NCBI RefSeq assembly: GCF_000622405.1
Contig: NZ_JASF01000005.1
Coordinates: 3,212,863-3,276,862 of the forward strand
Reading direction: 5' to 3'
Length of the DNA: 64,000 bases
Source: Sulfitobacter donghicola DSW-25 = KCTC 12864 = JCM 14565
Lineage (GTDB): Bacteria; Pseudomonadota; Alphaproteobacteria; Rhodobacterales; Rhodobacteraceae
Below the pieces are notes generated by a model that worked only from the letters and a program-made list of their open reading frames with translations, did not search any database and was not told the origin of the DNA. Shown piece after piece: positions 16,105 through 22,000 of this stretch; the first letter of the stretch is position 1, and each line of letters begins with the position of its first letter. Both the position numbers and the translations under genes were made by a program.

Positions 16105-16548
16105 ATGTCCAACGATAGTGATCTGATCAAGCTGTATTCGGGGCGCATTTTGGCGCTTGCTGCTGATATTCCGCATTTGGGCCGTTTGGATTCCCCCGAC
16201 GCAAGCGTTACGCGCCGCTCCCCATTGTGCGGGTCGAGCGTGACAGTTGACGTTCAGATGGAGGACGGAAAGCTGGTTGCCATGGGCCAAGATGTAAAAG
16301 CCTGCGCCTTGGGACAGGCAGCAGCAGCGGTTACCGGCGCGGCCGCGCTCGGGGCTTCGTTGGAAACCATCCAGCAAGGGCGCGATCAGTTAAAGGCAAT
16401 GCTAAAGGGCAAAGGCGGCACACCGGAAGCACCATTTGACGGTTTTGAGGTGCTCACCCCCGCCGTGGATTACAAAAACCGCCATGCCTCGATCATGCTG
16501 AGCCTCGAAGCCCTAGCCGAGGCGATGGAAACCGCCCAAGCAGGCTAA
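16105..16548 (+). CDS. IscU/NifU-like protein lacking canonical scaffold residues
   Basis: A 147-residue protein similar to the IscU/NifU N-terminal scaffold that carries Fe-S clusters. Two of the three scaffold cysteines are present: Cys42 (SPLCGSS) and Cys67 (VKACALGQAAA). The third, which follows the conserved His in IscU (HCSIL), is Ala128 here (NRHASIML), and the Asp after the first Cys is Ser (CGS instead of CGD). Such changes would be expected to weaken cluster building; it may be an assembly-related carrier or have another metal role. The 76 bp upstream holds its promoter; the gene is followed by a hairpin whose T tract faces the other strand. Confidence 0.85.
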   Translation: MSNDSDLIKLYSGRILALAADIPHLGRLDSPDASVTRRSPLCGSSVTVDVQMEDGKLVAMGQDVKACALGQAAAAVTGAAALGASLETIQQGRDQLKAMLKGKGGTPEAPFDGFEVLTPAVDYKNRHASIMLSLEALAEAMETAQAG

Positions 16549-16561
16549 CGCCCCCTGCTAG

Positions 16562-16599
16562 ACAAAAAAGACGCCGCACATCGGGACAGATGTGCGGCG
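16562..16599 (-). terminator. Intrinsic terminator facing minus-strand transcription
   Basis: Perfect 11-bp stem (16572-16582 with 16589-16599, loop GGGACA). On the minus strand it is followed by CTTTTTTGTC, so it serves transcripts coming from the right: the 42-residue gene (156 bp earlier) and read-through from recG. On the plus strand no T tract follows, but it may also protect the 3' end of the IscU-like mRNA. Confidence 0.75.
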
Positions 16600-16755
16600 C
16601 AAGAAAAGCGTATCTTATGTGGGACCCGATGGTTCGTTTTGGGGAAGGCAACCCCGAACATGTCATGGACAGGCAGAACGTGACATGGATGGTGCATCAA
16701 TTTGGGACAGAGGCACCGTTAAAACAAACCCCGGCATAAGAGCGCAGGCAGAAAA

Positions 16756-16884
16756 TCAGACAAGTACAGGAAGATGCAAACCGACCACCAGCATCACAAC
16801 CAAGGCAGCAGCCCCTACGGCATCTTGCACCAATGTATCTTGCGATCGGGCGGCAATGGCTTTGACTGTGCGATAGAAGGTCAT
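16756..16884 (-). CDS. 42-residue single-span membrane protein behind a LexA-type promoter
   Basis: Read directly from the sequence: ATG at 16884, TGA at 16758-16756, 42 codons. The N-terminal half is basic and polar (MTFYRTVKAIAARSQDT), the C-terminal half is a transmembrane helix (DAVGAAALVVMLVVGLHLP then VLV). GGAGAG lies 5-10 bases before the ATG. The promoter region has a GAAC repeat array including GAAC-N7-GAAC, the alphaproteobacterial LexA box. The orientation is the same as recG, 97 bp upstream. No named family was recognised. Known SOS-induced small inner-membrane proteins (Caulobacter SidA, Escherichia coli TisB) make a division inhibitor or a toxin possible, but this is inference. 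Too short for usual gene calling. Confidence 0.7.
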   Translation of the reverse strand: MTFYRTVKAIAARSQDTLVQDAVGAAALVVMLVVGLHLPVLV

Positions 16885-16938
16885 GTGTCTCTCCGTTCTT
16901 GTTGCCTCTTTGTTCTCACGTTAACCAAGGACAAGCAA

Positions 16939-16973
16939 GAACTTTTTGAGAACATTTGTGAACTTTTTAGAAC
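16939..16973 (-). promoter_or_regulatory. LexA-type GAAC array
   Basis: Four GAAC tetramers occur at 16939, 16950, 16960 and 16970. The first pair is GAACTTTTTGAGAAC, an exact GAAC-N7-GAAC (same as GTTC-N7-GTTC read on the minus strand), the known alphaproteobacterial LexA recognition pattern; the following pairs have N6. The array lies 55-90 bp upstream of the 42-residue ORF, in its likely promoter, and just after the recG stop codon. The run of near-helical spacing is stronger than a lone chance match. Confidence 0.7.
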
Positions 16974-16981
16974 AAAACAGG

Positions 16982-21259
<4,278 letters not shown>

Positions 21260-21292
21260 GTCTAGGTTCTTTCATACAATCAAGTCGCCCAT

Positions 21293-22000
21293 TCAGGCGC
21301 TAACGGCCAAATCCATATCGGCCGGTTCCGGATCACGCAGGACATAGCCACGGCCCCAAACTGTTTCGATATTGCTAGAACCGCCAGTGGCGTTTGTGAG
21401 TTTCTTGCGCAACTTACAGATAAACACGTCGATAATCTTTAACTCTGGTTCATCCATGCCGCCATACAGGTGGTTCAAGAACATTTCTTTGGTGAGAGTT
21501 GTCCCCTTACGCAGGCTCAACAATTCCAGCATCTGGTATTCTTTGCCCGTCAGATGAACTGGTTTATTTTCAACGCTCACCGTTTTGGCATCCAAGTTAA
21601 CCGAGATCAGGCCAGTATTGATGATAGACTGGGAATGCCCTTTTGAGCGGCGGATAATTGCGTGAATGCGCGCAACCAGTTCTTCGCGGTGGAATGGTTT
21701 GGTCAGATAATCGTCGGCGCCAAATCCAAAGCCACGGATTTTGCTCTCGGTATCATCTGCACCGGACAGGATCAAAATTGGTGTTTCAATACGGCTAAGT
21801 CGCAGTTGCCGCAGCACCTCGTGCCCTGTCATGTCCGGCAAACCGAGGTCTAACAAAATGATATCATAGTCATATAACTTTGCCAGATCGATCCCCTCTT
21901 CCCCTAGGTCCGTTGCATAAACGTTCAGGTTCGCATGGGTAAGCATCAATTCAATGCTTTTGGACGTGGTAGGATCATCTTCGACAAGCAGCACGCGCAT
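21293..22000 (-). CDS. ctrA: Cell-cycle response regulator CtrA
   Basis: CtrA is the OmpR-type master regulator of Alphaproteobacteria; in Rhodobacterales it is usually non-essential and controls motility, gene-transfer-agent release and differentiation genes. The 235-residue protein has the receiver domain with phospho-acceptor Asp51 ([11 protein letters not shown]), Thr and Lys at the switch (LSGAD, then [11 protein letters not shown]), and the winged-helix output ending [11 protein letters not shown]. The helix [20 protein letters not shown] is the recognition helix region. Length is normal. An upstream TTAA-N7-TAAA fits self-binding. A DUF1153/SciP-like gene lies 101 bp upstream in the same direction. 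Confidence 0.97.

Follow-up and report, generated by a model that had tools for sequence, protein, structure and literature searches.

Is the short reading frame directly behind recG in Sulfitobacter donghicola a gene of the SOS response, and what would its transcript deliver to the cell? The locus is part of a stretch of 64,000 nucleotides (the window), for which the first-pass annotation had proposed a 42-codon ORF with a GGAGAG ribosome-binding site, recG directly upstream and a terminator downstream. All of these parts were recovered. The ORF runs from 16884 to 16756 on the minus strand with an ATG start, the GGAGAG site occupies 16894..16889, the recG stop is located at 16982 and the terminator stem (16600..16571) lies about 155 bp past the stop codon. 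The locus contains the following features.

16105..16548, plus strand: convergent Fe-S scaffold-like gene, SufU-like, matched below the curated cut-off
16564..16600, minus strand: intrinsic terminator, with the stem at 16600..16571 and a T run; relatives repeat both the hairpin and the T run
16608..16745, minus strand: core of a structured 3'-UTR RNA, with a closing stem and three arms with C-rich loops, based on fold z, covariance model and covariation
16745..16751, minus strand: leader CTGCCTG, just before the RNA core and one base into it; the motif follows the stop codon in 131/147 loci
16756..16884, minus strand: small ORF of 42 codons for a predicted one-helix membrane protein, based on the ORF list, relatives, codon-position bias and the predicted helix
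16889..16894, minus strand: ribosome-binding site GGAGAG, read from the sequence; an SD-like motif stands near the start in 140/144 relatives
16901..16915, minus strand: box B, GAAC-N7-CAAC, which departs from the LexA pattern in one base and lies 38 bp from box A
16939..16953, minus strand: box A, LexA-type GTTC-N7-GTTC, read from the sequence and upstream in 143/146 relatives
16960..16973, minus strand: two extra GTTC half-sites with 10-bp spacing, read from the sequence; GTTC-N6-GTTC in 125/150 loci
16982..19096, minus strand: recG, the upstream neighbor, identified by NCBIfam RecG

NCBIfam matches gave the gene order ctrA, ligA, recG and small gene in the window. The recG gene preceded the small gene, in the same orientation, in 145 of the 150 fetched loci, some of the other five being cut by a contig end, and it was upstream of the small gene in 80/80 named loci. 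The convergent Fe-S scaffold-like gene followed by hisI was found downstream in 78/80 named loci. Terminator-like sites taken alone were at chance level, one in 700 bp being equal to the shuffled mean of 1.0. The cell-cycle regulator gene ctrA is near the small gene, beyond recG and ligA (16982..22000). In Frigidibacter L123 and L135, about 600 bp separated the end of the recG match from the small gene, compared with the usual distance of about 100 bp, which suggests that the extra DNA between the two genes is an insertion.

The window's family was sampled with 198 genomes from across its genera. A single-protein query detected relatives of the small protein in 122 of them and a 28-row profile in 164/198, the latter with one match in each genome listed. 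Compared with 49 close relatives (the out-of-register rows L106 and L107 were left out), substitutions at codon positions 1, 2 and 3 numbered 556, 296 and 1071, which is a coding-like pattern. In the comparison that the first-pass annotation had proposed as a check, the frame is conserved in relatives next to recG with GTTC-N7-GTTC upstream. Because of the conserved box (143/146 loci vs 0/144) and the coding-like substitutions, the ORF is, on comparative evidence, a genuine gene. The statement that it had been missed by length cut-offs was only partly right, since several relatives stand in NCBI as 'hypothetical protein'. The closest database proteins, all annotated in this way, were from Sulfitobacter. 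A 40-row profile recovered 129 proteins from a large protein database, and among the best 120 of these 129 the names, where given, were 'hypothetical' or 'uncharacterized', except for two JGI labels that look accidental. No significant family match was obtained for three members compared with Pfam, NCBIfam, PADLOC and PHROGs.

Class-wide profile searches (385 and 372 genomes) gave five strong matches each, all in the window's family. The matches outside the family (one in one search and 26 genomes at E<=0.05 in the other) were weak, mostly inside long frames, and were rejected as chance. Among the 34 family genomes without a profile match, 32 matched the RecG query, some only via Mfd-like proteins, and the inspection covered 28 recG loci. 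Box A was present in 12 of the 28 loci and a short hydrophobic ORF in 19 including all 12, the ORF count standing without a control set. Neither was found in nine of the 28 loci, therefore some members of the family lack the gene.

The region before the gene had been read as an SOS promoter, with GAAC-N7-GAAC and two more GAAC copies. All of these were present (GAAC-N7-GAAC in plus-strand reading at 16939..16953, the other copies at 16960 and 16970), and the LexA reading gained strong comparative support. After the mis-extracted rows L052, L162 and L345 were dropped, 147 rows were left, of which 146 had enough upstream DNA. The GTTC-N7-GTTC typical of alphaproteobacterial LexA regulons was found within 220 bp upstream of the start in 143/146 loci vs 0/144 in each of three control stretches. 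The bare box was not enriched in the window (1 observed vs 1.69 expected) or in the genome (44+31=75 matches vs 81+57=138 for the backwards pattern), so that conservation was used as the test instead. A comparison was also made in 30 genomes encoding the small gene, in which 29 recA and 29 lexA loci were found. GAAC-N7-GAAC precedes recA in 27/29 and lexA in 29/29 of these, including the window's own genome. Two overlapping LexA boxes (three half-sites) were observed before lexA in 5/29 genomes (L203, L208, L209, L210 and L212).

The 144 loci aligned on box A shared a 62-bp element, arranged as GTTC, box A, a TTTACA-like hexamer and then TGAGAACAAAG-N-GGCAACA, which contains box B. The window copy displayed TTGCTT where most loci have TTTACA. 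The starts of box A and box B were 38 bp apart in 117/128 pairs. Box B was GAAC-N7-CAAC in 122/150 loci and GAAC-N7-GAAC in 8/150. It keeps this CAAC-for-GAAC departure as if selected as a weaker operator. The extra half-sites are spaced at 10 bp from box A rather than at 11 bp, and may belong to the promoter or provide added LexA contacts. A scan of the small-gene promoter found no sigma-70 consensus.

These comparisons strongly support LexA control of the small gene, about as well as the corresponding boxes support it for recA and lexA. Since the box is about as regular as at recA and lexA, the gene probably belongs to the core SOS response of the window's family rather than being an accessory toxin. 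In the available text of a 2012 survey, recG of some α-Proteobacteria appears to be LexA regulated (PMC3323433). The exact box occurs in the window only after recG, and we therefore conjecture that part of the recG signal in that survey may belong to the small gene.

Protein statistics were based on 144 rows (L052, L162, L320, L326, L336 and L345 were left out). The usual length was 40 residues (115/144 relatives), in a range of about 40-42. The part N-terminal to the conserved D carried a net charge of about +1, the hydropathy maximum was at least 1.6 in 144/144 relatives and AlphaFold2 predicted a single helix covering residues 2-41 (mean pLDDT 89.6). This fits the basic N-terminus and single membrane helix noted previously. 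Conserved residues in the aligned rows were D21 (100%), G24 (98%), L36 (99%) and P39 (91%), and only 4/142 relatives had a charged residue within 19 residues after the conserved D. The product looks like a one-helix membrane protein with a tail ending right past the membrane. A one-sided conserved docking face on the helix was rejected, the peak near 100 degrees being not significant (p 0.22).

In the available text of two sources, the known inhibitors of division in the SOS response are described as small membrane proteins with a single helix that act on FtsW/FtsN (PMC4211646, PMC13396833). SidA from Caulobacter, compared here by description, is likewise a short protein of the inner membrane, SOS-controlled and found in an alphaproteobacterium. 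It has 29 residues vs 40-42 here, and the available text on SidA mentions no 3' RNA, in contrast to the conserved one at the present locus (PMC4211646). The short one-helix form of SidA is also what hydropathy and AlphaFold2 predict for the present protein. YneA (Bacillus), SosA and ChiZ are likewise described as SOS-induced small membrane proteins, and the YneA helix binds FtsW TM7. However, inhibition by YneA also requires an additional LysM domain, while the present protein has almost nothing beyond its helix (PMC13396833, available text). By this analogy, we consider the chances that the small protein is a division inhibitor to be about even.

TisB is a LexA-controlled short membrane peptide with an amphipathic helix carrying charged residues, and toxins of its type have an antisense RNA as antitoxin. 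A toxin of this type would insert its helix, lower the proton motive force and cause dormancy, and a structured RNA would tune its output. The LexA-type promoter and the short one-helix membrane protein are in common with the TisB-type toxins. However, their charged helix face was not found here, where a charge followed the conserved D in only 4/142 relatives, and the gene is single copy in a fixed place in 164/198 genus-spread genomes. The structured RNA modelled here is on the gene's own strand, and its pairing with the own gene start (-29.5 kcal/mol over 143 loci) was rejected as no better than with swapped (-29.4 kcal/mol) or shuffled (about -30.2 kcal/mol) controls. A TisB-like toxin is possible but unlikely, and the division inhibitor fits better because of the single copy per genome, the fixed place across genera and the nearly uncharged helix.

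The terminator had been seen in the first-pass annotation, but the interval before it was missed as a conserved structured RNA. In the window, the interval from stop codon to terminator folded at -71.1 kcal/mol (z -4.6), and only one of 200 shuffles was as good. The single folds listed for relatives displayed one plan, namely GCG-UCUCAUG...CAUGAGA-CGC as a long closing stem, arms whose loops are rich in C and then the terminator. Only the terminator and one short stem emerged from a first MAFFT/RNAalifold run with 124 UTRs, and the structure was subsequently built manually, using single folds together with 20 relatives. A covariance model of these 20 relatives gave 56 matches at E<=1 over 100 loci (371 kb), all on the gene strand. 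Fifty-five of them were located directly after the ORF and one (L256, E 0.11) overlapped the ORF end.

Among the 56 sequences, 33/33 modelled pairs had changes on both sides, and 84.1% of the cells could pair vs 65.9% in shuffled and 36-45% in slid controls. The alignment had been fitted to the structure, therefore these controls weigh more than the raw covariation count. G-U cells exceeded A-C cells (103 vs 42), which together with the terminator indicates that the RNA is read from the gene strand. A second model trained on the 56 sequences detected the RNA at E<=0.1 in 71/100 of the same loci and in 19/78 untrained loci, that is in only 90/178 loci overall. All 19 untrained matches were just past the ORF (18 by coordinate check and L350 by hand). 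The out-of-place match of the first model among the 78 loci was located elsewhere on the other strand (L325, E 0.49). The RNA is single copy in the window's genome (E 1.5e-15, next-best 4.8), and 142 genomes of the class gave only two matches, both in the window's family. No Rfam covariance model matched at E<=1 in 16300..17100, and the RNA seems to represent a family not described so far.

The loops of this RNA carry repeated motifs. CTGYC had a density of 3.8 per 150 nt vs 0.69 in shuffled sequences and 0.22 in recG. Loop 1 contained GTCCC in 48/56 sequences and loop 2 contained TGCC in 51/56; a C-rich motif was seen in 38/56 sequences for loop 3 and in 39/56 for the 3' bulge. Within the 42 nt that follow the stop codon, 131/147 loci had CTGCC or TGCCTGC; for comparison, 10/147 had CTGCC within the 42 nt at the beginning of the ORF. 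The repetition of the GUCCC and UGCC loop motifs suggests repeated contact with mRNAs or a protein.

Rhodobacter sphaeroides belongs to the same bacterial order as the window organism. Between its stop codon and its terminator, the present locus has the conserved structured RNA that is expected of an sRNA derived from a 3' UTR. In the available text on R. sphaeroides, CcsR1-4 are 3'-UTR-derived sRNAs from the mRNA of the small-protein gene ccaF1, which is thus also a small-protein mRNA with a regulatory 3' UTR, although its protein differs from the present one (PMC8625941). Neither recG nor LexA occurs in the main text of that paper. The present RNA could even be identical with one of the R. 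sphaeroides 3'-UTR sRNAs such as UdsD, as far as these are covered by the available text.

With such a precedent (PMC8625941, available text), the RNA might itself be the main product, an SOS-induced regulatory RNA, and the small protein a minor product or helper from its precursor. The covariation of 33/33 pairs and the repeated loop motifs would agree with this, but selection on the protein is clear and the protein profile reaches 164/198 genomes vs 90/178 loci for the RNA model (E<=0.1), so that we regard it as improbable. It is quite improbable that the protein is an SOS membrane protein with another job, such as transport, respiration or envelope repair, and that the RNA only stabilizes the 3' end of the mRNA. 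None of the three members scanned had a family match that reveals a function, and a structured 3' UTR could simply shield the message; however, the repeated unpaired loop motifs exceed the needs of protection. A conserved promoter element bound by a regulator other than LexA is very improbable, as the half-site and N7 spacing are the same as before recA and lexA in the same genomes, although the element exceeds a LexA box in length, includes half-sites at 10-bp spacing and has a bare pattern that shows no enrichment across the genome.

The preferred reading is that of a LexA-controlled transcript encoding a small membrane division inhibitor, SidA-like in action, and carrying a 3'-UTR regulatory RNA; we give it about an even chance. 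From the conserved gene, its place, the boxes and the RNA fold, we infer a course leading from LexA binding and induction through co-transcription and membrane insertion to division inhibition and a role of the RNA. LexA would repress through boxes A and B, which are predicted to overlap the promoter. After DNA damage, LexA would be cleaved and the promoter would open for a transcript of roughly 340 nt ending in the conserved multi-arm RNA. One transcript would span ORF and RNA, because the scan found no other terminator-like site between them. The protein of 40-42 residues is predicted to insert in the inner membrane via its one helix. It would then delay division, most likely at a divisome component such as FtsW (FtsW/I/N), by analogy with SidA, DidA and YneA as described in the available text of PMC4211646 and PMC13396833. 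The 3' RNA would most likely act as a regulatory RNA through its GUCCC/UGCC loops, either while still attached to the mRNA or after release as an sRNA, a type of 3'-UTR product that is established in R. sphaeroides (PMC8625941, available text); alternatively it may be a stabilizing element.

A more specific version is a dual-function SOS transcript, in which a membrane checkpoint protein is joined with a trans-acting RNA of a new family, the loops regulating target mRNAs or titrating an RNA-binding protein. We propose this version tentatively, as having somewhat less than an even chance. Both parts are short and single copy, so the hypothesis is open to direct testing.

Small SOS membrane effectors are already known, and what is new here is the protein family and the conserved RNA behind the same promoter. 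To our knowledge, few LexA-controlled regulatory RNAs have been reported. In the open-access literature (titles, abstract openings and some text passages), neither this gene and RNA nor an SOS division inhibitor for these bacteria was found described. The small gene is kept beside the DNA-repair gene recG in most genera of this large and mainly marine family, and the locus is a good candidate for a connection by which DNA damage leads to growth arrest in its members. If the dual-function transcript is true, growth arrest and post-transcriptional reprogramming would be switched together across a bacterial family.
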